Assembly (NCBI GenBank): GCA_021018995.1
Contig: CM037598.1
Coordinates: forward strand, 47,135,185 to 47,199,184
Reading direction: 5' to 3'
Origin: Chloranthus sessilifolius
Lineage: Eukaryota; Streptophyta; Magnoliopsida; Chloranthales; Chloranthaceae
Length of the DNA stretch: 64,000 nucleotides
The notes below the pieces were generated by a model. That model saw only the letters and a program-made list of their open reading frames with translations. It had not been told where the DNA came from and did not search any database. How positions within the stretch are numbered: the stretch's first letter is position 1; each line of letters starts with the position of its first letter. Below, in pieces: positions 5,172 through 37,934 of the stretch. The translations under genes were made by a program, and so were the position numbers.

Positions 5172-6480
5172 ACAAAATTCTCTCCCTTGATTAAGGTGGT
5201 GCTTTATCCAGGGCCCTGGGAACTCCCTTTTCGGGCGGCGTTCACGCCTCCGATGCCTCGCACGGAGAGACTCCAATGCTTTTTGGAAGAATCAAAGGGA
5301 ATCCTTTCATCTATGTGAAGACACAAAAATTTGCGCGACAACCCGATCTCTCGGAGGAGTTAATAAGAGGGGTGACCTCTTTAGACCATCGAGGGCATTT
5401 TGGGTTTCGAAAGGTGGAGGAACAATCAGGAGTATGAAAATTGCTAAGCAGAGGACTTAGGAAGGGTGAAAAGGTCCTCTAATTTGGGTTGCCTGACCTA
5501 GAACAGTCTAGCGCATGTATTATATACGCTAGGCAAAAATCCTGGAGATTTGCCTTAGTGTGTGTATTATACACGCTAGGATAAATTTTTGGGATTTTGA
5601 CTTAGCGTGTATATTATACACATTAGGAAAATTCTAGGATTTTTTTACTTAGCATGTATATTACACACGCTAGGCAAAAACATTGTATATGTATATATTT
5701 TATACAACAACAGTAGACCCGAGTTGGTCTATTTTTTGGGTTTTCTAGAAGCAGTGCTTCTAGGGACTATTTTTTCTTATTATTTTGGATCCCTCGTCAC
5801 CGTACCTAGGGATACAAAGTTGTTTCGAGGTATTCTAACATGCTCCCCAAGGGTTTTAATTCTTTTTCTTAAGCTCTGTCACCCACTTGATATACCTCCG
5901 ACGCAAGCGTCTTCTCAAATAATGGATGGAGTGGCACTTTTCAGGATCATCACCACTAGGGGCTGCCGTCGTACTAAGAATCAAGATGTTTGTATCACTA
6001 CCTATTTCCCTCCCTTTAAAATCTGCTGATGTAAAATGATTTAAGTCCCTTGTGGGTTAAATTTTAAGTTCATTATTTCTTTAAGGGAGTTTTCTTAAGT
6101 TCAAAAAAGAGCGGAGAGAAACCCGTGTCGCATCTACGGGCCAGCTTCCACTGATGGTATATGATTGACAAGAAAAGTAAGTGCTCCAGTAGGCCCGCCA
6201 AACAGCTAAAGCGGTAAAATGCACAAGCCTGCCAATTGGCTAAGGCGTGTAAATGACAAAAATGTAAATGCTCACGTAAGCTCGGCCCGTCAAATTGTTA
6301 AGGCGGTAAATGAATGAATCGTAGGTGTGAGTATAAAAATGATAGAAAAGTAGGGGTAAGTATAGAACAAATGGAATCGTAGGGGTAAGTATGCAAAAAG
6401 AGAGGAAAGTTAGATAAAAGAAAATTTAAAATTCATGCAAACAAGGGACCAAAACTTTAAGGAGAACATTTACAAGCTAT
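5172..6480 (-). other. Element B leader with hairpin words
   Basis: Noncoding leader between primer site and gag. It aligns with 58319-59797 of element F, best around GGTGATGATCCTGAAAAG (about 5935-5955, minus). It contains three degenerate copies of the PuGCCC/GGCGGGCC repeat (about 6185-6320) also seen three times in F, and four hairpin words near 5507-5532, 5552-5580, 5601-5626 and 5649-5673. Confidence 0.6.
5507..5673. repeat. Cluster of four CTAGCGTGT-type hairpins (B leader)
   Basis: Each unit has arms close to CCTAGCGTGT and ACACGCTAGG around an ATATT/ATTAT centre. Units start about 45 to 49 bases apart. The same word recurs in the LTR of B at 7543-7715 and nowhere else in the window. 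Confidence 0.85.
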
Positions 6481-6496
6481 CCCAGTGGAGTCGCCA
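6481..6496 (-). other. Primer binding site of element B
   Basis: The minus strand reads TGGCGACTCCACTGGG two bases inside the LTR end. Element F has TGGCAACTCCGCTGGGGA at the same place. This resembles the tRNA-Arg-type site described for Ogre elements. Confidence 0.7.
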
Positions 6497-6758
6497 TCTG
6501 TGCAACCATGGATTTTTATCAAATCCGTCCCGACGATGCACTCAAAATTTGGAGTAGCCACCCAGAGCTTTTGGTGACCCGGGATACCTCAAAATCAATA
6601 CGTGAGCCCCTAAGTGCAAAAATACAACTCCGGTTTACCGAACAATGCCAAAGGCTCTTGGGTAGCGGCTTCGGTTATCGATCGAGAAGGTGTTAAACAC
6701 CCAATCAACCCACTCGTAAGCTGTCTCTACTATGGCTGTTTGGATGTGTACATAAAAA

Positions 6759-6794
6759 ATATATATATATATATATATATATAATTATATATAT
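6759..6794. repeat. AT microsatellite
   Basis: An almost pure run of AT dinucleotides within the LTR of element B. Confidence 0.95.
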
Positions 6795-7256
6795 AAAAAG
6801 AAGAAAAAATGGACAACACTCCCCCTTGCCCGAAGCCACTCCGATCCTATCGATCCCTTCGTACCCGACAAAATTCGGGCGACGTAACGGCTCAATTCAA
6901 GGATAGAGGAAAAGTAAAGAAGGTAGAGGAATAGAGGGAAGAGTTGGAGCTCTCAGGCCTTTGTAGCACCACTGTGGATCTTCGCGCGAGAGCATCTTTG
7001 GTGAGCTTTCGAAAGCCAATGGATGGAAGGATAGGTCTTAAATTCTAAAGTTTAGGAGCTAGAGGGAAGGGGAGATGGACTAAGGCTTTGATCTCACCTA
7101 AACTCAAGGATTGATGGTGGAGAAAAGGGATCTAAGGAGGAAAAAGGGTGCTAGAATTTTGAGGGGTTTAGTGCTGGAAAATGGAGGGAGGAGCTCACTA
7201 AAATTCTTCACTTTTTGGAAAATTTTCAATCCTTCAATCAAGGGGGGGTGGCTCTC

Positions 7257-7265
7257 TATTTATAG
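7257..7265 (-). promoter_or_regulatory. TATA box of element B LTR
   Basis: The minus strand reads CTATAAATAGAGAG, nearly the same as the box in element F at 57588-57596, and lies about 280 bases downstream of the hairpin cluster in the direction of transcription. Confidence 0.65.
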
Positions 7266-7542
7266 GAGAGGAGAGGATTAGTGAAGGGTTAAAGGGCTAA
7301 TTAGGTTAGAAATTAGGTAATAGAGATCTAGGATTTTCTAGGTTTTCTAGGGCTTAGATAGGTGGGAATTGGGTTTAAATGGTAGATGATAGGGTGGGGT
7401 TGTAAGTGGCAAAAGAGTTAAAAAAAGGAAAAGTGGGGGTGCAACAGTCCTAACGAAACCAACTCCAATGGATAGGATGGTCAACAAGTCAAACTCCAAA
7501 TTTGAAATCTGACCAAATCCCCAAAAATCACTGTTCGTAAAG

Positions 7543-7715
7543 CCTAGCGTGTGTATTAGAGATGCTAGGTATGGGAACAGTGTTCTCTGAGAATCTCGGA
7601 GGTTCAAAACCTGCCATGGGGCCCACAATAGCAACTTTTGCCTAGTGTGTCTATTAGACATGCTAGGCCAAAATTTGTCAAAATTGGGCTAGCGTGTGTA
7701 ATACACACGCTAGGC
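7543..7715. repeat. Three CCTAGCGTGT hairpins in the U3 of B
   Basis: Units lie at 7543-7569, 7641-7667 and 7688-7715. Each has near-perfect inverted arms (CCTAGCGTGTGT with ACACACGCTAGG in the third). They sit upstream of the LTR TATA box on the minus strand. Confidence 0.9.
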
Positions 7716-8066
7716 TAATTTCCTGCCTTTCTGCTCAATTTTCAAACCACGATAACTTTCAGTATATAACTCAGATTGAGGAAATTCTTAGCTCGTTGGA
7801 AAGCTAGTAACATCCTCTTTCTGATGGGATAGGTAGCAGCAGTTTGCATAAATTTTGGCACTCCTCTTTTCAACCACTACCCGGAAAGGTTTAAAACGGG
7901 TTCGAGAGGGTTTTATAGGTTGGGGTTAATGCATAAGTATCAGGACGGGCTTCTAAGGGTTTGGGTTAAGTTCTAAGGGTTCAGGAAGTGCTCTCGGAAG
8001 CTCGGAGGGTACGCCTTTCTCAAAGTGTAAGTTAATCGGGCCTTGGGCCAAATTTGGGTGTCTACA

Positions 8067-9806: not shown

Positions 9807-10056
9807 TGATCGGTGCTGAAATATGACCAAAAGTCACACTTTAAATCCTATATTTAACTGTTCAATGAAAGCATCTGATGGTTGTTGTGAGGTTTTGATG
9901 TTTACAGGTGTTTTCGACAGTTAGATTGCTCAAGTGCATAAAAGAAGGAAATTACAGGCTAAAAAAGGAGATATGGACAAAAAGGTCCAAAGAAGCATTG
10001 AGAGCCATGAAGAGAATCAACTTCCATCAAGAAAAGAAAGACTTTGCATTGAAGAG

Positions 10057-10229
10057 TCAATCGATTGAGGCATTATGGTCAATCGATTGACAGATGGAGA
10101 AAAACTCAACCCTGGAAAGTCAATCGATTGAGACATAATATTCAATCGGTTGAGATATGAAGGCAGAAGTGTTCTAAGGGAATTCGAACTCTAAGTCAAT
10201 CGATTGAGATTTCTGCCTCAATCGATTGA
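10057..10229. repeat. Three palindrome pairs in C 5' LTR
   Basis: Six copies of TCAATCGATTGA (one with a single change) grouped as pairs, each pair 22 bases start to start. The identical block recurs in the 3' LTR from 22700. Confidence 0.97.
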
Positions 10230-10256
10230 GGCAATTAGGGTTAGTTTCAATCGGAT

Positions 10257-10268
10257 ATTATAAATAAG
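10257..10268 (+). promoter_or_regulatory. TATA box of element C LTR
   Basis: ATTATAAATAAGAG lies about 28 bases after the last palindrome of the U3 cluster. Confidence 0.7.
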
Positions 10269-11116
10269 AGGCTTACGGCTTTGAAAAGGGAGAGTTGTTT
10301 TGTTTGAGAGAGAGAGCTTTTTGAATAGAGAGTTTTTATTTCTTAGAGAGTTATTATTTTTGAGAGAAAAATTTGTGTAATAACTAGAGACTTTTGTAAG
10401 AAGAGTTTTCGGAGAGTATTTAAAATTGTGTTCTTCTTTTTACACCTTCTTTGCTCTTTACATTGGGAATGATTTTGAATACAATTGAAGATCTTGCAAC
10501 AAGGATGAGAGGCTAAAGGCTGTAGGTCAAGGAGGATGCGATCCCCAGATAAGTACCTATATTTTATGTTTAATGCCATAGTTTGATAATTTCATCATCA
10601 AATCGTTTTTCTTAAAGTTTAGTGATTCTGTTTTTAGTGTTTTGATCTAAAATACCATGAGATACGCTATGCTTTTCACATGATTCATACCGCATGATTA
10701 GGCTTTGAGTCATTGTTTTTAGATAGGGTATGCCGGTTAATGATCACGCAATTACTAGTCATGGTTCTCTTAGAATGATGGTGTGTTGATGTTCATAAAA
10801 TTGTGGGTTTAAAAATAGAAAAGGGTATAAATCTGGGGTAGCAAATTCCTTGATCTTGTTTTAAAAAATTTGTTCTTAGATTTCTCATTACATAATTTTT
10901 AGATTAATTTGTTTTCTTTCTTGCAATTAGAAAAGTGTTAACTCTTGGTAAAAATTAAAATCTGCCCCTTGGTACTTCCTCGGGGATATTTTCTAAATCT
11001 CTAGGAAGAATTGAATAAAATTTCAGATTTCCCTGTGGGTTCGACACCCTTGTTCTTGCCTTACTAGAACAGATCTTGTACACTTGCAAGGGTTTATTTA
11101 AAATTGATCAAGTTTT

Positions 11117-11134
11117 TGGCGCCGCTGCCGGGGA
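11117..11134 (+). other. Primer binding site of element C
   Basis: TGGCGCCGCTGCCGGGGA differs by one base from the complement of the plant tRNA-Asp 3' end (TGGCGCCGTTGCCGGGGA), the site usual in Athila elements. It starts six bases after the LTR end. Confidence 0.85.
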
Positions 11135-11190
11135 CATCGGCGAAATTTTGGTTAATTCCGATTAGAGATTTTATTTTTTTTATATAGCAG

Positions 11191-11990
11191 TCAACCGATT
11201 GAGAATAACCCCTCAATCGATTAACTCTATTTTGTGTGTGTGTTTGCTTGTCAGTCAATCGATTGAGCCTTGTTCTCAATCGATTGATTGTGTGTGTTTT
11301 TAGCAATAATTGTGTCTCAATCTATTGACACAACTCTGTCAATAGATTGAAAGCTAAAAAAAAAAAAATCTGATTTCCGAAAAAAAAAAAAAAAAAAAAA
11401 ATAAATATTCTTTCCCTAATTTTCTTTCTTAGATTAGATTTTGTGATCTTCTTTTAGGAAGTTTTTATTTTTAGGAAGTTTATATTTTTATTTATATATA
11501 TATATTTTTTTTCCTAAAAATAAAAAAATAAAAATAAAAAATAAAAAAATAAATAAATATAAAAATAAAAATAATAAAATAAAATAAAATAAAAAAAATA
11601 AAAAAAATTTTTTTTTTTTTAGTGGTCTTCTTTCCTTTTCCTTTTTACTTTGCTCTCTGTTGATAGCAGCATTCAATCGATTGAAGCTACTTTCTCAATC
11701 GATTGATACCACCACGTGGGTTTTCTACTTTTCTCTCAATCGATTGACATTCCTATGTCAATCAATTGACAGAATTCTTGAGTGTTTTTAATCTTTGAAC
11801 CTCAATCGATTGGGATAAGTCTCTCAATCGATTGACTGATAAAATCTTTTTCTGATATTCTGTGTGCTTTCTGACTCTTGGAACCTCAATCGATTGAGAG
11901 TATCCCCTCAATCGATTGACTGACAAGTCATTTGTGAGAAATTTTTTGTGCTCGTGTCAATCTATTGAGACCACAATCTCAATCGATTGA
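11191..11990. repeat. Eight palindrome pairs in the C leader
   Basis: Pairs start at 11191, 11255, 11317, 11673, 11736, 11802, 11886 and 11957. Seven are spaced 22 bases start to start and one (11255/11276) 21. Single-base variants such as TCAATCTATTGA keep the spacing. The spacer bases next to the words are often complementary to each other, so many pairs could fold as longer hairpins. Confidence 0.95.
11352..11640. repeat. A/T homopolymer-rich tract
   Basis: Long A runs, then T-rich and A-rich blocks in the leader of element C. Low complexity; the short frames through it are not genes. Confidence 0.9.
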
Positions 11991-12158
11991 GTCTGCTTGA
12001 GGACTTATTTTGGGTTCTTCAAACCTTTGATTGTTGGTGTGGTGTATGAGCTTTACTGCTTCTCATCACCCACATTTGCTACCGTTAATCCAGGAGATCG
12101 AGCGATCTTTGCGAGACAATCTTAGAATCCAAAGGAATCAAGATCATCCCACGATACC

Positions 12159-13600
12159 ATGGCTAATCAAGAGCAAGAAATGAATGAAAACAACAATCGA
12201 ATGGCAACAATGTGAATAATGGAAATAATGGGAACAATAATTACTATGGGGGACCTAGAACACTTGAATACTATAATGATCCTGGTTTTTACGAGGATCA
12301 GGAGTGAATCATCCATGCTCCCATTCCCGGGGATCATTATGAATTCAAATCAGCAATGATTCAAATGCTACCAATATTTCATGGTTTGGCAAATGAAAAT
12401 CAGACGCTCATCCGAACGAAGTTCACTGGGTATGCAAAATGTTCGAGTCCACAATGTTACTGATGAGATAGCGAAGCACCGACTCTTTCCGTTCTCTTTA
12501 AGAGACAAGGCAAAAACGTGCTTCTATTCTTTAGTACCGCAATCTATTCAGAGTTGGGCCCAGCTACATCGTCAGTTCCTCAAAAAGTATTTTCCCATGA
12601 CTAAAGCCATAGAGATGCGCCAAAGATCCTTTTCTTTTCCCAACAACCTACGAGACATTCCATGAATGCCGGGAACGCGTTTTAAGGAGTTAATCGAAGT
12701 TGCCCTAACCATCAAGTCCCAAGGTGGCAACAAGTCCAAAGTTTCTACAATGGATGATTCTCAAGAACGACGCATGGTTGATGCATCTTGCGGTGGATCT
12801 TGTGCCAAAGAGGCCGATGAGTTGTGGGCATTGTTTGAGAAATTGTATCAAACCTCGATACAAAGTGCGACAATCGGGCTTAACCACTTTGGACTTAGCA
12901 CCTAAATCTCATGTGTTGACCAAAGACGGATTGTATGAGGTCAACAATAATAACTCGATCTATCAACCAAGGTTGATATGTCAGTCCAAACAGATGACAA
13001 TGTTGTTAGCAACCAAGCAAGCTAAAGTTCCCGTCACCCCCATCAGTATGCTCAATTTGTGAACACCGTCATATGGCTAATGAGTGCCCAACTACCTTGA
13101 CATTCCTTCTCGATGAATCTACTCTTCCAGAGATAAATGTCACTCAATCTTATCGGCAAGGTAGAAACGTGTACTCAAATACCTACAACCCAGTGGAAAA
13201 ATCACCCCAACTTAGGATGGGGTGGATCAAACCAAATGGTCAGTCAACCAAGCAATACCGAGCCAATCCTATGAATGGACAACAAGTTTTTCCACAAAAT
13301 TTCCGTCCACAACAAATTTTCAGAGAATTCTAATTTTCACCGAATTCTAACTTTCGTGAGAATGCTCCATATTCTCATCCAAATTCGATTTAGGAAAAAT
13401 CGAATTTCAATCGAATCCTAATCAATCTCATACAAGCACTTCAAAGGATTACGACCGAAGAAAAGGTAATGCACGATGCAATCTTTTCAGCAGATGATAA
13501 TCGACCAAGTCACCAATTGGCAAATCAACTGAGTCGACGAGAGGAGGTAAGCTTCCACCAACCCATCGAATCCTCGCGCCAAGCATCATCGATGAAGGAC
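12159..13600 (+). pseudogene. Athila-like gag (element C)
   Basis: Begins around MANQEQEMNENNN (12159). A recognisable capsid section follows at 12381-12665 (HRLFPFSLRDKAKT, QSWAQLHRQFLKKYFP), then the Cys/Gly segment DASCGGSC near 12779 seen in all Athila-like gags, and a Gln-rich tail. The matching protein in element D has LFPFSLKDRAKTW and VDGSCGGTY. The frame is broken several times. Confidence 0.75.
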
Positions 13601-13802
13601 CATTAAATAGTCAACTTGAAAAATTGTGTTCGTGTTGCAGTGGACGGGAAGTTCATAATCAAGTGGAATTGCTCGTGGGAAGCAGAGGAAAAAGTGAAGC
13701 GCATAAAAAGAGAGGAAGCGATAAAAAGAAAGAGTCGAGAGAAGAGCGGAGAAAGAGAGAAGAAAAGAGAAGGAGGAAAGAAGAGAGAAGGGAAAAGAAA
13801 AG

Positions 13803-14640
13803 GTGATAGAGGATGAGTCTCCCTCAACTGTCCAACAAGGACAAGATTCAGAAGGGGAACCCGCACCTTTTGTCCCAAAGGCACCATTTCCTCAATGCCT
13901 AACTCCTCCATCAAGAATGGGAAAGGGACCAACAAAAATGGAAGATATTTTCGAAACATTTAAGCAAGTAAAGATAAACCTTCCATTGCTTGAAACGATC
14001 AAGCAAGTGCCTGAGTATGCAAAGTTTTTCAAAGATTTATGCACTCGGAAGAGAAAGGCACGTAATCATGTTTCGAGGAAAGTGTTCTTGACTAATCAAG
14101 TCAGTTCTATATTGCAATTGGAAACCCCACAAAAACTAAAAGATCCTGGAGTTCCTACTGTTCCATGTGTCATAGGTGGGCAACCAGTTGGGAAAGCGTT
14201 ATTGGATTTGGGAGCCAGTGTTAATTTAATCCCATATTCATTGTACGAGAAACTTCGGAATTTGGGTGAATTGAGACCCTAGCGGCCACACCTGCAAGCT
14301 GGCGATAGATCGGGAAAGACGCAGGTGCGTTATTGAGGATGTCTTGGTTGGAATAGATAAGTTTGTCTTTCCAGTGGATTTTGTTGTTTTGGACATGGAC
14401 ACACCTGTTAAGTCACTTAATCAAGTCCCCATCATCCTTGGACGTCCGTTTCTCGCTACGGCCAACGCGTGCATTAATTGTCGAACAGGAGTCATGGACA
14501 TTTCTTTTGGAAACATGAAGGTTCGATTGAATATCTTCCATGCGATGAACCATTTCCCAAACGAGGACGAGGTCGAATGTTTTTACATCGATCAGATAGA
14601 TGAAGTGGTGGATGAGGCATTACCTTCAATGCTTACCAAA
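13803..14640 (+). pseudogene. Athila-like protease region (element C)
   Basis: A linker containing KVKINLP-type residues and EYAKFFKDLC precedes the aspartic protease core LLDLGASVNLIPYSLYEKL (about 14205). The flap-side block VPIILGRPFLATANACI and FGNMKVRLN follows near 14425-14530. This order is diagnostic of Athila-like pol. Confidence 0.8.
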
Positions 14641-14799
14641 GAGGAATTTGAAAATGCTTTGTTGGCCATCTATGAAGAGAAAGGATCGGAAGAGAAGCAG
14701 TCCGACGAGAGAGAGTCTAGCTCATCATACCAGGATGATCACTTAGCTGCGAGTGTGCCTGAGATAGAATCATTACCTGTTGAGGTGGAGGACGTGTTG

Positions 14800-15900
14800 C
14801 CTCCATCACTTGAGCAACCACCACTTGTGGAATTGAAACAATTGCCAGAGTCCCTCAAGTATGCTTTTCTGGGACCTCATGAAACACTTCCAGTAATAAT
14901 CTCATCCACGTTGTCGGCAGAACAAGAAAAAGAATTGTTGAAGGTGCTGAAAGAGCACAAGGAAGCTATCGGTTGGACTCTCACTGATCTCAAAGGGATT
15001 GACCCATCGGTATGTATGCATAAAATACATTTGGAAGATGAGAGTAAACCTTCAAGGAACCTAGCACGACTTAATCCAAACATGCAAGAAGTCGTTCTAA
15101 AAGAAGTCATTAAACTCCTTGATCTGGAATCATCTATCCGATTCGATAGTGAATGGGTTAGTCGGTCAAATTATTCGAAAAGTCCGGAATCACTGTGAAG
15201 GAAACTGCTGAAGGAGAATTGGTCCCCACTCGAGAAACTACTGGATGGCGTGTCTGCATTGATTTTCGGAAATTAAACGCCGCCACCAGAAAGGATCATT
15301 TTCCCCTTCCGTTCATTGATCAAATCCTTGAGAAGTTAGCTGGGCAAGAGTTTTACTGTTTTCTTGATGGGTATTCGGGATACAATCAGGTGCCTGTCTA
15401 CCCAGCTGATCAAGAAAAAACAACGTTCACATGCCCTTATGGTACGTTTGCATACCGCAGGATGCCATTCGGCCTATGTAATGCCCCGGCCACATTTCAA
15501 CGGTGTATGTTGGCCATATTTTCAGATATGATCGACAAATTCATTGAAGTATTCATGGACGACTTCTCGGTTTTTGGGAGAACCTTTGATTCTTGTTTGA
15601 ATCATCTTTCACAAGTGCTGCAACGTTGTGTTGACTCCAAACTTGTTCTTAGCTGGGAGAAGAGCCATTTTATGGTTAAACAAGGGATTGTTCTGGGGCA
15701 CATTGTTTCACAGAAAGGAATCGAGGTGGATAGAGCAAAAGTTGATCTAATTGCTAACTTGCCACCACCCAATAGTGTTCGACAAATTCGGTCATTTTTG
15801 GGTCATGCAGGATTTTATCGAAGGTTTATTAAGGATTTCAGCAAGGTGGCTAAACCATTGTGCACCTTGCTTGGCAAAGATGTTCCATTTGAATTTCTTC
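14800..15900 (+). pseudogene. Athila-like reverse transcriptase (element C)
   Basis: Contains GWRVCIDFRKLNAATRKDHF, then CFLDGYSGYNQV, RRMPFGLCNAPATFQRCM and the catalytic box VFMDDFSVFG near 15550, ending with FLGHAGFYRRFIKDFS. This copies element RNA into DNA, and the sequence is clearly Athila clade. The best open stretch is 15195-16046. Confidence 0.88.
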
Positions 15901-15939
15901 GACTGCATGCAAGCATTTTTGAAATTGCGAGAGCTCTTA

Positions 15940-16330
15940 TCCAATGCACCAATCATCCAATACCACGGATTATTCTCTCCCATTCGAACTCATGTGTGAT
16001 GCATCCGACACGCAATTGGAGCTGTCCTAGGACAGAGGGTGAATAAATTACCTCACGTAATTTATTATGCTAGCAAGTCATTAATTGATGCCCAACTCAA
16101 TTACACCACCACCGAGAAAGAATTATTAGCTGTGGTGTATGCTCTAGACAAGTTTCGTTCCTATTTGCTTGGATAAAAAATAGTGGTCTTTTCAGATCAT
16201 TCCGCTCTGAAATATCTTCTAGCAAAGAAGGATACTAAACCAAGATTAATCCGTTGGATCCTTCTGCTCCAAGAGTTCAATTTCGAGATTAAGGATAAGA
16301 AGGGGGTTGAGAACGTGGTGGCTGATCATT
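15940..16330 (+). pseudogene. Athila-like RNase H (element C)
   Basis: Carries the MCDAS-type start near 15990, the ELLAVVYALDKFRSYLLG region (about 16115-16170) and FSDHSALKYLLAKKDTKPRL, then DKKGVENVVADHLSR, the standard RNase H to integrase linker. Confidence 0.82.
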
Positions 16331-17500
16331 TGTCGAGAATTCTACCTGAAGAATCTGCAATACCTGAGACCATCCGTGACACGTTTCCGGATGAACATTT
16401 GCTAGCAATTGATATAGCTTATGCAAAGGTTCCATGGTTTGCGAACATTGTGAATTATCTGGTTACTGGCAGAATCCCCACTGAGTGGGGTAAGAATGAT
16501 AAGAATCTCTTTTTCTCCCAAATAAAATACTATTTTTGGGATGAACCATGTCTGTTAAAATTCTGTTCAGATCAGCTCATCATGAGATGTGTACCCGAAG
16601 AGGAGCAAATGAGCATCCTACACTTGTGTCATGCTGGGGCCTGTGGCGGCCATTTCGGAGGACGTAAGACCGCCGTAAAATCCTTCAAAGCGGATTCATC
16701 GCCTCTATCTTCGTGGACGCTAAATTTTGCAAGGAATGCCGACGATGTCAACAGCTTGGCAATATTTCAAACGGAATATGATGCCCTTAATCCAATTTCG
16801 ATCGTTGAAATTTTTTGATGTTTGGGGGATTGACTTTATGGGTCCCTTTCCCCATCCTTTGGGTTTTCATATATCTAGTGGTCATGATTATGTCTCGAAA
16901 TGGATAGAAGCTGTGGCAACCCGATCGAATGATCATAAGGTTGTGGTCAAATTCCTCAGAGAAAATGTGTTTACCCGATTGGGGATTCCAAGAGCAATCA
17001 TCGATGGCGGTTTGCATTTTGTAATAGCCATTTTGCCACCTTAATGAAGAAGTACGGCGTCACTCACAAAGTTGTTACGCACCATCCACGTAGCGGTCAA
17101 GTGGAAGTGTCTAATCGGGAAATTGCGAATTCTAGAAAACGGTCCGATTGGATAGAAAAGATTGGTCAAACCGGCTCTCCGAGGCTCGTGGGCCTATCGG
17201 CCCGCATTCAAGACACCGATTGGAATGCTTCCGTTGTGAATTGTTTACGGGAAAGCTTTCCTTCTTCCTGCCGAATTGGAGCATAAAGCATTCTGGGCGA
17301 TAAAAAAGATTTAATTACGACATGCAAGCGGTTGGGTCACATCATTGCAATTGAATGAATTGGAGGAATTACGCTCAAGCGATGAGAATTGAAAATGTAC
17401 AAGGAAAGGTATAAAAGTGCATGATGCATCCATTTCTAAAAGAATTTCACGTTGGCCAAAAAGTTTGGTTATTCAATTCTCAAGCTCCACCCGGAAAATT
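16331..17500 (+). pseudogene. Athila-like integrase (element C)
   Basis: The zinc-binding H2C2 region is marked by LHLCHAGACGGHFGGRKT (about 16620-16675). The catalytic core contains WGIDFMGPFP and YVSKWIEAVATRSND, then HKVVTHHPRSGQVEVSNREI and the C-terminal block toward 17500. Compared with the same region of element D it is strongly degraded. Confidence 0.78.
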
Positions 17501-17734
17501 AAAATCTCGATGGGAAGGCCCATTTCGTAGTGTCCATTAGTGCGCATGGTGCCATAGAAATTGAACCTTGTTGACAATCGACATAAAGTTAATGGGCAAA
17601 GACTCAAACCAATGTTTGAGCCGATCACCCAGTTACAGATTGAGGCGATGCACCTCCGTGATCCCGGGATCGACATCGAAAGGTCGAAATCGACATGTAA
17701 ACTCAGCGCTTCCTGGGAGGCACCCCAGTTGTTG

Positions 17735-18250
17735 TTGTAAAAAAAAAAAAAAAAAAAAAACAACAAAGAAAGGAGCCCACAGTCAATCGATTGACTGTGA
17801 CTCCTCAATCGATTGAAGGGTCTGTGAAAGTCAATTGACTGAGATTCCTCAATCGATTGAAGAGTCTGTGTCAATCGATTGAGCTTCATCATCAATTTTT
17901 TTTAGTCTTTTGTCTCAATCGATTGAGAATTTGGCCTCAATCGATTGACGTCTTAAGAGTTTGTGCATTTGTGTTGGAAGTTGAACCGCCACCCGACAAC
18001 TCTTGTCATGGCAGCTGCCGTCTCGGGTTGGTTTTTCGTGGCCCTTTAATGCCCTTCCGTTTCCAAGGACACCAACCGGCGCTATCAATCCTCAATCGAT
18101 TGACACCTTAGTGTCAATCGATTGACATTAAGGTGTGGAGTAATGGCACACGCCCCGTCTCCCAAGCAGTGCCACGTTACCGCTCCCTCCTCGCGACGTG
18201 GGGAGTCCATGCATCCTCAATCGATTGAGCAGTACGCCTCAATCGATTGA
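17735..18250. repeat. Palindrome pairs upstream of the C extra gene
   Basis: After an A run, TCAATCGATTGA pairs start at 17783, 17849/17871 (with a shortened copy at 17831), 17915, 18092 and 18217. Spacings are 22. The last pair ends about eight bases before a TATA box. Confidence 0.95.
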
Positions 18251-18258
18251 GGCTCACA

Positions 18259-18270
18259 CTATATATATGG
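18259..18270 (+). promoter_or_regulatory. Putative internal TATA box for the extra gene of C
   Basis: CTATATATATGG lies directly after the palindrome pair at 18217-18250 and about 125 bases before the first long frame of the extra gene. The LTR of element D has CTATATATGG in the equivalent place. An internal promoter is inferred from position only. Confidence 0.55.
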
Positions 18271-18394
18271 TCCTCCCCACCCGTGGAGTCTTCATTTGAA
18301 TTCTAGCCTAATTTTCAAGCCAAGATCTTATCTCTTCCTTATTTTTGATCCCATGGCTACCCTTATCTGACCACCGCGTCCAGCCCATGATCCG

Positions 18395-19467
18395 ATGCGC
18401 ATCCCTAACGAGCATTATGTCGATCGCCAATTCCAAACGGAGAATTTTTTCGACTTGGTGAAGTATCGGAACATCGCGGAATGCGCACGGTCGATCGAAT
18501 TCATCGAGGCCCTCCATTTGGAAATGCTACTGACCCCACCACCCATCGATGTCGCCCCACGCATCATTCGCCTATTCTATCAAAAGATGGTGTGGGTGCC
18601 CGAGACCCTCTCCCCAACCGGCTTGCCGTTTATCACCATTGAGGTAGATAATTGGTAATATAATCTCCATGCCGCTGATCTTGCCCGTGCCTTTAATTTC
18701 TACGAGGCTCGTCCCGTCAACCACCACCTTCCTCCGGCTATCGAGCGTAGCCAAGATGATATGATCAACAATATGTGTGGTGGTCGCCGGGACCGGTCGC
18801 CAAAAGCGCTGTGTTGCCCATGGATATCCTCTTTTGGGATATAGTTATGGCCAATAACCTTTTGCCACATGGCACCAAGACCGAGCGGACTTTGGGTCGG
18901 GTGAAGGCGCTTCTACAGACACACCAATACTTGGTTTGATGCTGGGTTGATGTCATGAGATGTACCGCTGCCATAGCGTACCGTAAGCGTGCCAGCGATT
19001 CTCCTCCACTTCCCACACTATGTGATGCACCGGATCACCTTGGCTGCCCCATCTATGACGATGAGGAGATGGGCGACATGCAATTCTATCAATATGGTGT
19101 GAATGTGTGGGTCAAGAGTATCAAGGCGATCATCCGCGTGCAATCGGCCCCGATTGAGGATGCTCCTCCTCCTCCGTCAAACCCTACAGCGTAACGTGGC
19201 GGTGTTAGGCGACCTCGTCCCGAAGAGGTCCCCGATTTTGATGCCGAGGCGGCTGTTGCTCGCCTTGAGGTGCGGATGGACGGGCTGAATGCACGGCTTG
19301 GTGGTGTGGATAGGCGGTCCCGGTTTCAAACTGCTCTCCTTATGCGAATGGCTCGCGAGTCATTCCCGGATCGTGCCAACAATTTCATCGACGGCGCGAG
19401 AGCGGCAATGAACGAGGGGCGGGACCCGGAAGATGAAGATGAAGATGATGATGATGATGATGTGTGA
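18395..19467 (+). pseudogene. Athila-type extra ORF (element C)
   Basis: Open stretches at 18395-18658, 18955-19194 and 19270-19467. The first contains FFDLVKYRNI and IIRLFYQKMVW, like the LFYQ region of the PF20167-like proteins in this window. The last ends in a long Asp/Glu run encoded by GATGAT repeats. The position, downstream of integrase and before a long 3' noncoding part, fits the Athila ORF often called env-like. No signal peptide or membrane segment is apparent in the open stretches, so an envelope role is not supported. It is broken. Confidence 0.7.
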
Positions 19468-19626
19468 TTGTCTTGTTTTGTTGTGAAGTTTTCTTTTCTC
19501 TGTTTGGTGTTTTTGTTTTTGTTTTTGTTTTTTTGTTGTTGATGTATCGGATCGGTGGCTGCAAGTTTAAATGCTAATGTTTGTTTTGTTGTGAGCATAT
19601 TATTGTGTTTGGTTTCTGGCTCTCAG

Positions 19627-20846
19627 TCAATCGATTGAGATCTCTCTCTCAATCGATTGAGCTACTTCATGCCCTCCTAAATTTTCCTCTGTCAATCGAT
19701 TGAGACTTCTGTCTCAATCGATTGACTGATGCACCTAAATTTGGACATTCCTGGTTTTGGTCTCTATTTTTAGCATGGTTCATCAATCGATTGACATTTA
19801 GGTGCCAATCGCTTGACACTTACTTGGTCAGCCAGTCAAACCCCTGCTGGAATAGGGGAGTTTCTCCAAATATTTGGTGTGGAGCTCGGATTTACCATCT
19901 TTGCCCTCTCTTGTCAATCGATTGACACAAACATGTCAATCGATTGACTGAGACTCCTTTCTAATTATTTCTCCATGCACCGACTTCCGAATTTTTTTGT
20001 TTTTTTCTTTTAAAGTGTCCCTCTTTTAGGAAATTCTTAGCTATTTAGGGCACTTGCCGGGTCCTCCTTTAGTCCATATTTGCAGTTTCCGTCCCTGCCT
20101 TGTCGCTATGTCTTCCATCCGTCCTCGTACGAGCGTGATCCAAAGTTCATGGAACCACGCATAAGCGTGCAGATACACCGCTCCACCACGCATCGATTGG
20201 TCCACCCATACCATCATCCACCTTGATGATGAATCTGTCATCACCACCCCTACCCCACCCTTATCACCACCTCTACCACCAATTCCACCCGTCGCGCTTG
20301 GAATTTCACGAAGAAATATGGCGCTACGCTTTTCCAAAGCCACGGGGCGAAATCTCGACCATGGCGGACTAGAGGATTTGTTTTTGGTTTTTAGGGTCTA
20401 ATTTTACATGTCTTTAGGGTAGGGTTGTTTTTCTGTTTTTGTTTGGTTTGTTTTCGTTTTGAATTCGTTTGTTTCGTGTTGCATCATGTTAGAATTTTGC
20501 TTTACGTTGTTATAATTTTTTTTTTAATAATAATATAGTTTCGTATTTGTGTTTTCTCTCTTTCCCTTGCTCGGTTGTTTTTGTCCTTTGTTTGCATAGA
20601 GCAGGTTTGGGGGAGGCCTTCTTCCCTTTCTCCACATCATCACCAATGAGGACATTGGCCCATTCAGGTTGGGGGGGGGGGGGTAATTGTTCTTCTTATA
20701 AAAAAAAAAAAAAAAAAAAAAGAACCTTGTAGCTGTTCTCGGATATTTTGAATGTTTATCAGTCAATCGATTGAGCATACTGTCTCAATCGATCAACTGA
20801 TAAACATTAAAGGATATAAGAATATGTGGCTCATTCAATCGATTAA
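19627..20846. repeat. Palindrome pairs downstream of the C extra gene
   Basis: Pairs start at 19627, 19692, 19783, 19914 and 20763, all 22 bases start to start, plus a single word at 20835. The pair at 19692 has 16-base arms around a four-base loop. Confidence 0.95.
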
Positions 20847-21535
20847 CTGAGGGTTGGCAAAAGCTGTAATCTAATTGATTATTCATATTTGTGAGCATGA
20901 AGATTCTTCCTGAAATTTCTTTAATCAATGCTATCATACCATGGTTATTTTATGAGTGCCCATAAGGTGTAGATATTGAACATTAATGATCATGAATCAT
21001 GCTTAAAAATAATTGTTTTCATCACTCGCTTTCAATCTCAAAATCGGAGGATTAAGTGTGTAACATGGAATCCTAAAGATCACAAAGAAAGACTAAAACC
21101 TTGAAAGTTTTTGAAACACTTGTCCTTGCTCTTAATGAGTGCTGAAATAAATTCGGAGTATCTTTGAAATCCTTGTTCCAATTATTAAAACCCATTGATT
21201 TGTGATTTTATGTGTGTTATAACATTACACTAGAAATCATTGTGTACTAACTTGAGGCAAATGGGCATATTTTACCATCATGAAAGGAAATGATCTAAGG
21301 CCATCATTGGTTCGTCTGTGCTTAACATGACCCACCTTATAAATTTACCCTTCTAGTACACCTTTGAGCTTATTGGAAATTTACCTTTATACATTCTTTG
21401 ATAAGCTGCAATAACCTTTAACCCTTACACGAAAATTCAGCTTGCCCTTACTTATTTCTGAGAAATTAGGAACAAGGGATGAAAATGAGTGAAACGAGAG
21501 TAAGTGGGGATATATATGTGTTATAGTGTGTACTG

Positions 21536-21574
<39 letters not shown>

Positions 21575-22239
21575 AGAAGTAAAGGAAATTGCAAAAACAA
21601 TGAAAAATATATTGAGAAGAATGGTGAGAGACTAGAAAAGAAAAAAAAAAAAAAAAAAAGAATAAAAATACAAAATCAGTAGTTGTTTCTTTTCCAATTT
21701 CTCAGAAAGTTTTGAATCTATCCTTCCTTTCTTCTCTTAACCTTAACCCGAGCCCCATTACAACCTTAGAAAAGACCTTTTTGATCCAATCATGAGTGAT
21801 GAAATGCCTTGTGGAGAGTAAGTACACAATTGTCTATGGTGCTTGATATATGCATGCTTAAAATACAGATATCTTTCTTAATGAGATTTCCCTTATAATT
21901 CTTTGATACACCATATATCTTTAAACTTGTGGGATTTTCTTCTAATTGTGTTACAATTCCATCTCATTCATCGGAAGTGATTTCATTCTGAGTGTATACC
22001 CATGGTGAGGATTGGAGTCTAGACATGCGATCTAAAAGTTCCAGTTTAAAGCTTTTTCCTCTGACATAAGAACTTTGGACAGTGATGATCTCATGACATT
22101 GAGGCATGAAATATGAACATTAGAAGACAATGGTCTGAACTGAATGTGGCATAAATGGAATGAACGTGGTTAGATGTATTTTAAAAAGATTTTTCAGGAG
22201 CATCTAATTGCTAAAGGACATGATTAATCAATCCTGATA

Positions 22240-22449
22240 GCCTTGAAGTTTGTAGGTACCTTCACTGAAAACCTTCAGGAGACGCAACTCCTCCACTAGG
22301 GATCACCTAGGGGTTTAAAGGGTTGTTGCACATGCTAAGTGCAATCGTGTTCCCTACGAAAGTGGCATTTAAATTTTTAGGATGTTAGTTTATTTTTATA
22401 TTTATCATTCTCTTTGCTCGAGGACTAGCAAAGTGTAGGTTTGGGGGTG
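22240..22449 (+). other. Conserved pre-LTR block and polypurine tract of C
   Basis: Includes CTCCTCCACTAGGGATCACC and AAAGTGGCATTT, then ACTAGCAAAG and AGGTTTGGGGGTG. Element D has nearly the same text in the same order on the minus strand (28954-29150), although the rest of the 3' noncoding DNA is far less similar. Confidence 0.8.
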
Positions 22450-23747
22450 TGATCGGTGCTGAAATATGACCAAAAGTCACACTTTAAATCCTATATTTAA
22501 CTGTTCAATGAAAGCATCTGATGGTTGTTGTGAGGTTTTGATGTTTACAGGTGTTTCCGACAGTTAGATTGCTCAAGTGCATAAAAGAAGGAAATTACAG
22601 GCTAAAAAAGGAGATATGGACAAAAAGGTCCAAAGAAGCATTGAGAGCCATGAAGAGAATCAACTTCCATCAAGAAAAGAAAGACTTTGCATTGAAGAGT
22701 CAATCGATTGAGGCATTATGGTCAATCGATTGACAGATGGAGAAAAACTCAACCCTGGAAAGTCAATCGATTGAGACATAATATTCAATCGGTTGAGATA
22801 TGAAGGCAGAAGTGTTCTAAGGGAATTCGAACTCTAAGTCAATCGATTGAGATTTCTGCCTCAATCGATTGAGGCAATTAGGGTTAGTTTCAATCGGATA
22901 TTATAAATAAGAGGCTTACAGCTTTGAAAAGGGAGAGTTGTTTTGTTTGAGAGAGAGCTTTTGAATAGAGAGTTTTATTTCTTAGAGAGTTATTATTTTT
23001 GAGAGAAAAAGTTGTGTAATAACTAGAGACTTTTGTAAGAAGAGTTTTCTGAGAGTATTTAAAATTGTGTTCTTCTTTTTACACCTTCTTTGCTCTTTAC
23101 ATTGGGAATGATTTTGAATACAATTGAAGATCTTGCAACAAGGATGAGAGGCTAAAGGCTGTAGGTCAAGGAGGATGCGATCCCCAGATAAGTACCTATA
23201 TTTTATGTTTAATGCCATAGTTTGATAATTTCATCATCAAATCGTTTTTCTTAAAGTTTAGTGATTCTGTTTTTAGTGTTTTGATCTAAAATACCATGAG
23301 ATACGCTATGCTTTTCACATGATTCATACCGCGATTAGGCTGAGTCATTGTTTTTAGATAGGGTATGCCGGGTTAATGATCACGCTTAATTACTAGTCAT
23401 GGTTCTCTTAGAATGATGGTGTGTTGATGTTCATAAAATTGTGGGTTTAAAAATAGAAAAGGGTATAAATCTGGGGTAGCAAATTCCTTGATCTTGTTTT
23501 AAAAAATTTGTTCTTAGATTTCTCATTACATAATTTTTAGATTAATTTGTTTTCTTTCTTGCAATTAGAAAAGTGTTAACTCTTGGTAAAAATTAAAATC
23601 TGCCCCTTGGTACTTCCTCGGGGATATTTTCTAAATCTCAGGAAGAATTGAATAAAATTTCAGATTTCCCTGTGGGTTCGACACCCTTGTTCTTGCCTTA
23701 CTAGAACAGATCTTGTACACTTGCAAGAGTTTATTTAAAATTGATCA
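22450..23747 (+). mobile_element. Element C 3' LTR (1298 bp)
   Basis: Near-identical to 9807-11110 and followed by the GTTAC target duplication at 23748-23752. Palindrome pairs begin at 22700/22722. Confidence 0.95.
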
Positions 23748-26886: not shown

Positions 26887-28953
26887 TGTTGGGGTATTCC
26901 AATGTGCTGATTTATTGCATGATGATAGCAAAACAGGAGATGGATTCAGCACATCTAGAATATCCTAGGCCTACAAGATACAGGGTCCTTTGTAGTAAGT
27001 TTTAATAAGTAAGGGAATGTCCACAAGGAGGTGAGTTTAAAATATGGTAAATCTCCAGATCTGTAAGAGATCTGGCACCCTAACTAATGCTAAGGAAGCT
27101 AAGAAAAAGGGGAGAGGTTAAACAACGTTGTCGCTTGAACTAAACTATACTTGAAATAGAAACTACTGAGATCGAGTCCAGAGATCTAGATCTTGCAAAT
27201 GGAAGGGTTTAAAAACAGAAAATGGAGAAGAGCAACTTGGAGATTGGTCTCACTGTGATCAGGTTGAGCCGATCATGTTAAAGGGGTTTCAAAGCACACA
27301 AATCCCTCAGCTAGCTACAAGCACAACAACATGGTAGAAGGTTTCACTCTAAACCAAAGGATTTAATTGATTTAAGGCTATTGTCTGTCCACTTTAATGG
27401 TCACAGACCATCCTATAGACTTCATCCGATCCAAAGGTCTATGATAGAAGAATCCAATTGAAACCAGAGATTGGACTGCTCTTAAGGCTATGATCTGTCC
27501 ACTTTAATGATCACAGATCATCCTATGGAATTCCTCCAAACCAAAGGTTTCAACCAAAGCATTAAAATCACTACAAATGCTACAATTTCCATGTCACAAA
27601 CATAAGAAACTACAAGGATATCAGATCTAGGGAGCTCAGATGGTATCCAAGAGGTATACCAGTTTAGTGGGTGAGCTGATCAACAGACTCCTCTACACAA
27701 ATCTGATCGAACACCAAATGAAACTAAAGGAACTATAAAACTAATTAAATTAATAGAAACAACATTTACATTGCAATAAAACTCGCTCTACAATGAAATG
27801 CTCTCAGATCTGTAGTTTGTGCAATAATTAACCCACAATAACACTCTCAACCTTACCCAATTACAGATCTAACCTCTCTCTTCGCTGCTCCAAGGGAATT
27901 AGCCAACCATGGTTGAGAAAAAAGAGGAAAAATGGACTTTCACTGCAAGCTCTGATCTCTAGAAATTGATCTAATTCTTGATCTCCCCCAATTGCAATTG
28001 GGGATCTCCATATATAGCTTTCTCTCTTATTTTTCCTACCAATCTTTCCTTCTAGAAGGTCCTCAGAATTTATTAGAGTTCTATTAGAGCACGTGGGTTG
28101 GTTAGGATTTTCTAGTGCGTCTTTTGGATCATCGTGCCGACCACCAATGTGCCTCGGTTTACGTGCAACAGGTCACCAAGTTGCAGCGTGTGAATTGTCG
28201 ATTTTCTAAGTTCTTCACATGATTTCGATAGGTTGAGGAAGCTTTCGATAGGTTCAAATGGAGCTTTTTGGTCCTTTCACTGGGTTCTCAGATCTCTTCG
28301 ATAGGTTCCAATAGGATGAGCCATCTCCTAATGCTTCAACATTCTCAGCCCTCTGCCTGGAGCATTCGACAGGTTGGGGAAGCTTTTCGATAGGTTGGAG
28401 GACCATTTCGATAGGTTTCTCTCTCGTGTCTCCATCTCGATAGGTTCAAGAAACCATTCGACAGGTTCCTCTTACACCTCTGGCAGGCGTTCGATAGGAT
28501 GGTTTCTTCCTTTCTTTTAGCTGCCCGATATGTTCTTGGATCCTATCGAACTCCTCAATCCACACGAATCCATTCTTCTTCTGCCTTCATATCCTATCGA
28601 AACCATTCCAACTGCACGAATTCCTCCTTTCTTTTCTTTCAGTTCCTATCAAAGTCTTCAGATGACCTCTCGATAGGATATTTTTAATCTGTTTTAACTT
28701 CCTTCGCCTTACCCTGCTGTAGCCATGCGCTCCAAGGGCCCAATGGTGTGCAACCCTCTTGTGTGCCATTGCTGGGTCTGCATTGTGTTGAGAGATGGAC
28801 TTCCTTGTGTGGCATTCTTGAGTAGTTTTCTACATTTTTCCTATCTTTTATTACTATCTACAAAATAGACTCAACAGAGGGTTATTAATGTGCTCACAGG
28901 TCCATCAAAGGTCAGGTTAAGGGGTGAAAACTGGAATTTTTCACTACTTAACA
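26887..28953 (-). mobile_element. Element D 3' LTR (2067 bp)
   Basis: Aligns with 37941-39992 throughout. Plus-strand ends are TGTTGGGG and CTTAACA. The TCGATAGG cluster lies at 28224-28681, and on the minus strand a TATA-like CTATATATGG follows near 28022-28012. Confidence 0.93.
28224..28681. repeat. TCGATAGG word cluster, D 3' LTR
   Basis: About ten forward words (TCGATAGG or TCGACAGG) between 28224 and 28500, then reversed words (CCTATCGA) from about 28541. Several neighbours are 20 or 21 bases apart (28366/28387/28408, 28437/28458). The same cluster recurs in the 5' LTR at about 39275-39730. Confidence 0.9.
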
Positions 28954-29150
28954 TACCCCCAAACCTAAGCTTTGCTAGTCCCTGAGCAAAGGAAAATTAA
29001 AGAAAAATAAAAATGCCACTTTCATAGGGATCACGGATGCATTTAGCATGTGCATCAAGCCTTTTCAACCCCTAGGTGATCCCTAGTGGAGGAGTGAAGT
29101 CTCCTGAGGGTTTTTAGTGAAGGTACTCACAAACTTCTCCCATAAAGTTA
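28954..29150 (-). other. Conserved pre-LTR block and polypurine tract of D
   Basis: Minus-strand counterpart of 22240-22449, sharing CTCCTCCACTAGGGATCACC and ending AGGTTTGGGGGTA right before the LTR. Confidence 0.8.
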
Positions 29151-30690
29151 GTTAATAGTAGTGCATCCTGCTAAAACAGAGTTTCAGTAAATAGAATAAA
29201 TTCACACCATATCTTTTCCATTCATTAGAGGAATTTCAACAGAAAAAAAAAATCAGTTCAAAACTTGAATGTCTGCTGTGATCCTTTACCATCACTCAGC
29301 TCATGTCAAGGCATTTCTCCTAAAAATTAGTGCATGGCTCACCTTTGACTTGAGAATTCCGTTTTGATACTACCCCCATCACATTGGATTTCAGACCCAA
29401 GTCTCACCAGGGTTGTTCACTCACAACAAAGAAAGTAAAAGGTGTATAATTTCACGCAGCTCAAGAGCAGTTACAACCCTGAAATAGGATTGCAAGCATG
29501 AGCATAGGCATTGCTCTAATTCCTCAAATTTTCTAGCTCTTTCCACCATAGATTAAAACAAGTCCTTATCTCCACATGACAACTCAATTTATTTCAGATC
29601 AGTAAGGTCTTTTTATTGGGTTGTAATGTGGCTTAGGGATGAGGTTTGTAAAAGAATGAAAGGATAAAAGGGGTTCAAATTGAGAAGCCAGTAAAGGTAA
29701 GGAGGTGGTCTGCAGCTCAACCTTCTTCATTTCAGCACCTCTTCACTTTCTTTTTTGAATTTTCAGACTTGAAGTGATCAGCTTTTCAAATGAAGTGACT
29801 TCTCTTTCTCACCCTTTTACTCTATTTCTATTTTTTTATTTATATGGGCCGGAATGTCACAACACCACCAAATGGGTTTTCCTCTTTCTGAACCAAAAAT
29901 ACACCCGCTCTACCTTCACCTTTGTCTTCTGAATTCTCAGAGTGAGGGTCCGGCCGTATAAGGTAAAAAGGGTTTTGTGGGTTTGGATTTTCTAGTTTCC
30001 ATCAAAGAAATTGGGATCTTTAAGGCTCAAAGCGGGTGTATCAAGGGCAGTTCAAAGGGTAGGATCTTTAAGCTCAAGTTGTCAAAGGGATGGCCTTACT
30101 TCATGTCCTCCATGTCATGAGTGCTGTCGAGTTGTTTCAACTTCGATTTGCTTAACTTCTAGTGAGCAGAATTGAGTTCAATCAGTCCTTAGAGCAGAAG
30201 AATTTGCCAAGACACTCTTCAAAGAAAAATTCTCAGGCCCAAATCTCACTGGATATGGCCTGCCATCAAATTTTCAGGGGTGTATCTTCACAATCTTCTC
30301 TCGTTTTAGGTTTACTACACATGAAAATTATTTTTTGAAAATTGTTGACATTTGCCTCATGAAGCCTTTTGGACTACAGATGATTTCAGTTTCAACAATT
30401 TTTTAATTTCCTCTTTTCCAACAAAAATCAAGTGAGAATTTACTCTAACTAATTCCAAACACTCCTTTTTAGCCTAGCTGCACTATTATTAACTCATTTC
30501 ATTGGCTTACCTGTCATACCCCAAAACCTAAATGGAACAGTGTCCTCACTGTTGGGAGCATGGTAGGAAGCACACAAGTAAGACATAATATTAGAAAAGA
30601 AAGAGACACAAAAGTTGAATGTAGACAAGCACAGAGAACATTAAAAAGACATAATATTGAAAAAAGCACACTACAAATATGAAATTTATC
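29151..30690 (-). other. Element D 3' noncoding region
   Basis: No gene seen. A polypurine-like tract (minus strand TTTAGGTTTTGGGGTA, about 30540-30522) follows the extra-gene remnant, as in element C. Weak similarity to the 3' noncoding part of C is scattered through it. Confidence 0.7.
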
Positions 30691-31110
30691 TCTATAGAAG
30701 ATCAAAATCTGGCGCAGGGATATCCTCCTCCTGCTTACGATGGAAGAGGAACTGCAAGCCAGGATGGAAGGAAGAATAGAAAAAAGAGAAAAAAAAATAA
30801 AAATGATGGATCAGGGGGAAGGGGATGGGGTAGTGGTGGAGGATGGAGGTGGGGAAGCTGGAGGCTCGGTCTTCTGTCTCTTCTTCTCCCGCTTGTTCTT
30901 TTTCCTTTCCTCCTTGGCGAGGATTCTTTGTACCTCTTCATATTATCCTAGAAAAATTGGAGAGGGTCAGGCTCGACCAGTGGTGGCGGTGGTGGCCAGA
31001 CTGGGTAGAACTTCGTCGGCAAGTCTTGACGTTTGTCGTCGACCATGAGTGTGGGATGGAAGGGTTGCACAAGTCAAGGGGCAATAGACATGGTAAGGTT
31101 GGACGAGGCT
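30690..31110 (-). pseudogene. Short extra-gene remnant (element D)
   Basis: Minus-strand frames here are basic (SPRRKGKRTSGRRRDRR) and then Pro-rich, in the position of the extra gene of element C. The LFYQ domain is not recognisable, so only the tail of such a gene, or an unrelated frame, may remain. A TTTAAATATT sequence near 31125-31110 could be a TATA box. Confidence 0.35.
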
Positions 31111-31384
31111 AATATTTAAAGGTCATGGATGTTGGAATATAAATCGGTAGAATAAATTTTCGCATTCTTTCAGGCTGAAAGTGAAAGTGGGGATAAATGG
31201 AGTGGTGGTTGCTGTGTGGGAAATAGAGCGCGGACTGCATGATGGGCTATTTTTAGGAGTGGTAGTTAAGTCAAGGAAGTATGCGCAATGAATGCTGAGA
31301 CACTAATTTGTGGATAAGGATGAACACATGCGCGGATAGTGGGAAGGGCAAATGAGGAAGAGGGAGCTAGGGTTTTTAGAAGGT

Positions 31385-31745
31385 GTCGAATGGAAGAGAC
31401 TGTCCTATCGAAAGGTTATAGAGAAGGAAAGATGATTTCAATAGGATGAGATGAGTGATTCCGATAGGTCAAGGCATCCTGTCGAAATCATGGTGAATGA
31501 AACTTTCAAATGGAATGATTTGATAGGATTCCGATAGGTATTTAGTGGGTGATCCATCATTTCTATAGGTTCCAGATAGGTATCCAGAGCCTATCGAAAC
31601 CTTCTTTCTTTCTCTCTTGATCCTATCGAAGAGTTGATTTTAGCTATCAACCAGTATTAGTACCTATCAAAAATCTCAAAGAACCTATCGAAATAATCGA
31701 CTGTCCTCACGAAAGGTGCAATTAACGTATCGAAAGGTCTCAAAA
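31385..31745. repeat. TCGATAGG words upstream of the D extra-gene remnant
   Basis: About a dozen variants in both orientations (CCTATCGAA, CCGATAGG, CTATAGG, CGTATCGAA). These are the same words as in the LTR cluster, here just upstream on the minus strand of the extra-gene remnant. Confidence 0.85.
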
Positions 31746-35960: not shown

Positions 35961-36065
35961 CTGGTCATCTGTCGTTTTAACTTTATTATTTTCTTGAGAA
36001 TCCTCATTCTCTTTCTTATTTTAACTGGGTGGTTCCTGCTGTGTCTTTCCGAAAACCACTTCTTT

Positions 36066-37916: not shown

Positions 37917-37934
37917 TCCCCGACAGCGGCACTA
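37917..37934 (-). other. Primer binding site of element D
   Basis: Minus-strand TAGTGCCGCTGTCGGGGA starts six bases after the LTR end, the same offset as in element C. It is a diverged tRNA-Asp-type site. Confidence 0.7.

Follow-up and report, generated by a model that had tools for sequence, protein, structure and literature searches.

A 12-letter palindrome in 22-bp pairs is shared by Ty3/gypsy and Ty1/copia retrotransposons of Chloranthus sessilifolius

Palindromic repeated motifs, termed Sirevirus-specific in their published description, precede the TATA box within the long terminal repeat (LTR) and also the envelope-like gene in the 13 Sireviruses studied (PMC2829016), and Retand elements are described as carrying tandem repeats between pol and the 3′ LTR (PMC11963269). 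Here, we analyzed a 64,000-nucleotide stretch of Chloranthus sessilifolius DNA (GCA_021018995.1, contig CM037598.1, positions 47,135,185 to 47,199,184 of the forward strand), referred to below as the window. A Ty3/gypsy retrotransposon within it, element C (9807–23747), holds all window copies of the 12-letter palindrome TCAATCGATTGA, 37 of them exact and 10 with one mismatch. This word has a set spacing and placement, is conserved, is shared by gypsy and copia elements, and lies at a near-constant distance from TATA-like boxes. From these sequence patterns, we infer that it probably provides promoter and enhancer sites for a dimeric DNA-binding protein, which is itself likely to be host-encoded.

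The exact copies, whose core is AATCGATT, span 10057–22872 and compare with a mean of 0.01 and a maximum of 1 in 100 dinucleotide shuffles of the window; at up to one mismatch, the 47 words found compare with 0.43 expected. With up to two mismatches allowed, element C has its words arranged in 24 pairs; the start-to-start spacing is 22 base pairs (bp) in 23 of them and 21 bp in one, at 11255. Each LTR contains three pairs and the leader eight; an extra gene has five on its upstream side and five on its downstream side, and gag-pol (12150–17450) contains no word within two mismatches, the closest matches there having three. A first-pass annotation made from the letters of this DNA had given the same count, spacing, placement, and absence from gag-pol, and the 16-base arms it reported at 19692 are readable in the sequence; its entry covers 10057–23000, and the element itself, by self-BLAST, runs from 9807 to 23747, with LTRs at 9807–11110 and 22450–23747. 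All pairs were located by word scan on the plus strand: in the 5′ LTR at 10057/10079, 10120/10142, and 10196/10218, each spaced 22 (10057–10229); in the leader at 11191, 11255, 11317, 11673, 11736, 11802, 11886, and 11957 (11191–11990); upstream of the extra gene at 17783, 17849, 17915, 18092, and 18217 (17783–18250); downstream of it at 19627, 19692, 19783, 19914, and 20763 (19627–20846, a span that includes the unpaired word at 20835); and in the 3′ LTR, as the same three pairs, at 22700, 22763, and 22839. The word at 20835 has one mismatch, and a second unpaired word, at 17831, has two. The spacers of the pairs are mostly dissimilar to one another. The leader pair at 11317–11350 consists of mutated words, TCAATCTATTGA and TCAATAGATTGA, that are mutually reverse-complementary.

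The same spacing dominates the source genome. Across 2,168,743,587 bases in 32 contigs, where we counted spacings of 22 and 23–52 and where counts for large repeat families are lower bounds, exact pairs at 22 numbered 18,872, and a reversed-pattern control gave 0. The 30 spacings from 23 to 52 together held 8,039 exact pairs, a mean of 268 each that includes the outer words of triplets at 44, so that a sharp peak at 22 stands at about 70 times this mean. One of 10 random 5-kilobase (kb) stretches of the genome contained exact words, two of them 76 apart, a sample too small for a background rate.

We read 20 stretches of 10 kb on contig 1, picked from the hit lists for holding words, and found 173 exact words in them. 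Nine of these loci are related to C by similarity in gag-pol, the extra gene, the LTR, or the leader (L010 and L014 by LTR only). In six others, words lie within or beside Ty1/copia LTR sequence: L015, L022, and L023 carry words in their LTRs together with the copia domains Retrotran_gag_2, gag_pre-integrs, or RVT_2, and L005, L009, and L017 were classed as copia by similarity to the LTRs of those three, the words of L009 adjoining the similar stretch. The LTRs of L022 and L023 are about 0.7 kb long. The remaining five loci (L006, L007, L013, L016, and L018) are other or unassigned repeats. Among distances of up to 52 between adjacent exact words, 22 accounted for 59 of 88 across the 20 loci and dominated each class (42/60 in C-related loci, 10/15 in copia, and 7/13 in other repeats). 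Four of the 20 loci contain runs of three to five words, each with at most one mismatch, at exactly 22, and seven gag-pol spans of relatives contained no exact word and three with one mismatch. The pairs had been expected to be confined to the family of element C; since copia LTRs and unassigned repeats carry them too, that expectation fails. At L011 8450–8549, five consecutive words, one with one mismatch, follow each other at exactly 22.

The words are better conserved than their surroundings. In alignments of C with its relatives, per-site identity was 96.1% within words (634/660) and 78.1% in flanks (1,758/2,252), in loci that had been found through the word and with the caveat that repeated words can attract alignment. 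Intact words made up 45 of the 55 aligned (one misaligned case included). In distant relatives, 11 of 17 words were intact vs 487 of 8,255 control 12-mers (5.9%), and in the close copy L011/L012, 33 of 37 words vs 2,395 of 6,292 control 12-mers. The two LTRs of C differ by 6 substitutions and 12 gap columns, none of which falls within an exact word. The central CG was kept in 50 of 54 aligned words, compared with 136 of 215 CGs elsewhere in the noncoding parts.

Word pairs also stand at a near-constant distance from TATA-like boxes, measured from the start of the last word to the first such box after it. In the 5′ LTR of C, the box TATAAATA (10259–10266, plus strand) lies 41 bp past the last word, a distance repeated in L010, L011, and L012, with 39–40 bp in L021 and 43 bp in L019 and L020. 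These seven LTRs represent about five elements, L011/L012 being the two LTRs of one element and L019/L020 apparently another such pair; the survey leaves out L008, L014, and L024. Upstream of the extra gene of C, a TATA-like box at 18260–18267 (plus strand) lies 21 bp past the start of the last word (18239), and the same 21 bp recurs in L008, L011, and L024 (four of five regions); no TATA-like box was found in the upstream region of the extra gene of L019. The distances are thus near two helical turns before the gene and four in the LTR. The gene-upstream stretches fall into two similarity groups, C with L011 and L008 with L024, and related copies may simply share the constant distance. Further TATA-like words are present in some of the scanned stretches.

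A second retrotransposon in the window, element D (26887–39992, minus strand; self-BLAST and word scan), is related to C, with 66–68% nucleotide identity in pol. TCAATCGATTGA is absent from it at up to two mismatches; a different phased word, CCTATCGAAA, recurs in its LTRs and across 31413–31737. This word is non-palindromic and its repeats occur in both orientations. In the 5′ LTR and internal part of D, we found 38 matches at up to two mismatches, of which we used the 27 in two clusters and omitted 11 scattered ones. Within the clusters, nine distances between TCGA centers fell at 20–22 vs 2.3 simulated (P 0.0002), eight of the nine being exactly 21. The best period of the adjacent distances was 10.5 bp (R 0.69; R 0.54, n = 15, without the 20–23 group). 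A source-genome count made at spacing 21 gave 437 forward and 411 reverse direct CCTATCGAAA pairs. Direct non-palindromic words cannot form a hairpin together, so the phasing in D speaks for DNA. Elsewhere in the window, 5560–7730 and 57100–59310 contain partly matching repeats with different long palindromes, of the types CTAGCGTGTGTA.TACACACGCTAG and GGCGTATATA.TATATACGCC.

Coding content confirmed element C as a gypsy retrotransposon with a degenerate gag-pol (12150–17700, plus strand). Its domains are in order, with Retrotrans_gag, RVT_1, and RT_RNaseH above cut-off and the protease (Asp_protease_2) and the integrase zinc domain (Integrase_H2C2) below. The broken third gene, which lies between pol and the 3′ LTR as in the Athila lineage, was delimited approximately from open reading pieces at 18353–19464 (plus strand). 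We provisionally place C in the Athila lineage of Ty3/gypsy, after the name given in the first-pass annotation and its primer-site sequence. Its LTRs are 98.6% identical over 1307 columns by self-BLAST, and its coding frames, the extra gene included, are disrupted; C therefore appears to be a recent insertion, probably of a copy whose genes were already broken and whose words were intact. Sirevirus motif clusters are described as bordering CpG islands (PMC2829016); in C, the ratio of observed to expected CpG was 0.56 in the LTR, 1.01 in the leader, 0.92 before the gene, 1.03 in the gene, and 0.59 after it. There was no Rfam match at gathering scores and no tRNA was detected.

We considered the extra gene as a source of a known DNA-binding domain and rejected it. 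PF20167 (Transposase_32), whose cut-off is 45 bits, was matched weakly by open pieces in the relatives L008 and L024 (17.7 and 20.0 bits) and not at all by the pieces of C itself; one C piece gave a sub-threshold match to GP67 along its acidic end. Comparison with solved structures returned a single chance-level match (E 1.7), and none of 228 candidates in a protein search reached E 0.001.

Together, these patterns are best explained if TCAATCGATTGA is the target of a nuclear protein that binds a specific DNA sequence as a dimer. At each pair, two such dimers would sit side by side on one face of the DNA, two helical turns apart, as the first-pass annotation had proposed; the peak at 22, the runs at 22, the 21-bp phasing in D, and the TATA distances favor this part of its proposal, and the restriction to one family falls away. 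In the LTR and before the extra gene, the pairs immediately preceding the TATA box would be promoter elements that activate the LTR and the gene, and those in the leader and after the gene may be enhancers or silencing-resisting sites that keep noncoding DNA accessible. The protein is more likely to be encoded by the host than by the element, given that the word is common to gypsy and copia elements, which are unrelated. Such sharing suggests that several unrelated kinds of retrotransposon rely on the same DNA-binding switch protein.

Several observations weigh against binding by paired dimers at promoters. In C-type elements, the distances from one pair to the next follow no 10.5-bp period (R 0.16, 5% level 0.19, n = 87), and other periods score higher, such as 12.25 at 0.29. 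In the copia LTRs of L022 and L023, the words are near the LTR start and the stretch scanned yielded no TATA-like box; L016 has its box at 87 bp. Words are also present on the downstream side of both the LTR promoter and the extra gene. Within words, the CG was kept slightly less often (50/54) than other dinucleotides (518/536), so the CG tracks the word as a whole and shows no conservation beyond it.

A broader form of the dimer-site reading, which we hold only tentatively, is a shared cis-code: every family would carry a palindromic word of its own, helically phased and with a central CG, and gypsy and copia elements would have gained the 22-bp pairs of TCAATCGATTGA independently, plugging into one host activator or anti-silencing protein. 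It is unlikely that the protein comes from the element itself, with the product of the extra gene binding words in its own noncoding DNA and stripping silencing marks in the manner of VANC while copia elements parasitize it. Words are indeed dense in the noncoding parts of C, an element that has an extra gene, and the window contains two related families with different words, as among VANDAL families (PMC5735166), but the word is also found in copia elements, C has a broken extra gene, and two relatives match PF20167 no more than weakly in their open pieces. D has a phased word of its own, yet tblastn with four extra-gene pieces of C found nothing in D at E 10. VANC motifs are also described as sitting in one-orientation tandem repeats (PMC5735166), whereas the spacers of C are mostly dissimilar.

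A slightly less likely account than the VANC-like one is that each pair acts as a hairpin, in RNA or single-stranded DNA, with the palindromes and three spacer bases per side forming a 15-bp stem and a 4-base loop; RNA hairpins had already been raised as the rival explanation in the first-pass annotation. Merging homologues reduced 123 pairs to 44, in which spacer positions 1–3 were complementary within pairs in 63 of 132 cases vs 39.5 when shuffled, a value reached in 0 of 4,000 shuffles; positions 4 and 5 were complementary in 11/44 and 9/44 pairs, and outer flanks were at chance. This non-random complementarity of spacer ends lies outside the prediction of the dimer-pair model and counts against it. 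Among pairs with both words mutated, 4 of 15 were mutually reverse-complementary vs 0.61 shuffled (P 0.002), or 2 of 9 after merging homologues. In C alone, however, the three spacer positions gave 29/63 vs 25.7 (P 0.20), with the first position at 16/21 (P 0.005). Word changes in 13 oriented sources, from which 8 loci of undetermined orientation were omitted, revealed no asymmetry of the kind a sense RNA would leave, with 23 G·U-tolerated and 26 pairing-breaking transitions; the spacers in sense orientation gave 29 cases of G–T and 22 of A–C. With no excess of G·U-keeping changes, sense RNA pairing is thus unsupported. One leader stretch folds far more stably than its shuffles (z −8.4), as would any palindrome set, and its minimum-free-energy fold joins distant words. 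The runs of three to five words at 22 and the direct words of D at 21, which are unable to fold against each other, also argue against a hairpin. Arm-to-arm copying or DNA-level hairpin selection may still account for the complementarity. Copying of one arm onto the other by template switching in near-palindromes, during reverse transcription or replication and free of selection, would explain why complementarity is confined to the inner three bases, but we think it improbable, for it leaves unexplained the peak at 22, the absence from gag-pol, the sharing between gypsy and copia, the TATA distance, and the direct words of D.

Outside the plant, the exact pair was absent from viral contigs; the ten-base core occurred in pairs in nine viral stretches, one of them at 22 and lacking the full word. 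A soybean-like variant of the word had no occurrence in the viral contigs, a collection not expected to contain plant DNA. In prokaryote genomes, the exact pair was found in two records with similar surroundings (L035 3649–3682 and L036 5233–5266), both from Acidobacteriota, the phylum of Geothrix. The pair at 22 there resembles a bacterial operator and is probably convergent. Different palindromes were seen in two further stretches: L027 254–4080, one of the random 5-kb stretches, has arrays of CGATACGTATCG spaced 14 and 26, and L034 4868–4984 has TATCGGCCGATA together with variants of it, at four spacings of which two are 21.

How plant retrotransposons are transcribed despite silencing is poorly known. 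One short word in 22-bp pairs, present about 19,000 times in this one genome and common to unrelated elements, would be an easy bait for the protein that reads it; that protein, once identified, would account for the activation of entire classes of elements. Short words with unlike spacers would also avoid identical stretches of small-RNA length, as an escape from RNA-directed silencing would need.

The BII boxes of Tnt1 are not known to form palindrome pairs that are spaced 22 and dispersed over the noncoding DNA of the element. They resemble the pairs of C in being promoter boxes of a plant LTR retrotransposon that bind defense-induced DNA-binding factors, and they are described for one family (PMC3316501). 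VANC and VANDAL elements share with C a short, dense word in noncoding parts and related families with different words, but their motifs lie in tandem repeats, are reported as rare outside the family, and are bound by an element-encoded protein, and that of VANC21 is non-palindromic, whereas TCAATCGATTGA also occurs in copia LTRs (PMC5735166, PMC10398659). Arabidopsis short interrupted repeat cassettes likewise combine short repeats with unlike spacers and have similar copies inside ATHILA; they are direct repeats of 10–29 bp in cassettes of 2–8, and the passages describing them mention no fixed spacing of 22 (PMC10342631).

In the literature searched, TCAATCGATTGA appears only in work that title and abstract indicate to be non-plant. 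Palindromes in maize Sirevirus LTRs are reportedly the subject of a 2016 paper in Genome Research. The Sirevirus motifs are the closest likeness: their palindromic word occurs 8–32 times per element (in C, with both LTRs included, 37 times exactly and 10 times with one mismatch), words are family-specific and conserved while flanks diverge, and they precede the TATA box within the LTR, as does the last LTR word of C, 41 bp before TATAAATA (PMC2829016). The Tnd-1 motif ACAATCGATTGT even shares the core CAATCGATTG, ten of twelve bases, with TCAATCGATTGA (PMC2829016). The CGG–CCG core of Sireviruses is absent here (the core is AATCGATT), as it is from Tnd-1, and 77 of 79 linker copies precede the envelope-like gene, whereas C has five pairs before its extra gene and five after (PMC2829016). 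Within one genome, the carriers here are Ty3/gypsy elements, other repeats, and copia elements whose LTRs measure about 0.7 kb, and the spacing of 22 dominates, whereas the sections describing the Sirevirus motifs give no fixed spacing (PMC2829016). The logic is thus that of the Sirevirus motifs; what appears new is its presence in gypsy and copia elements at once, with 22-bp pairing.

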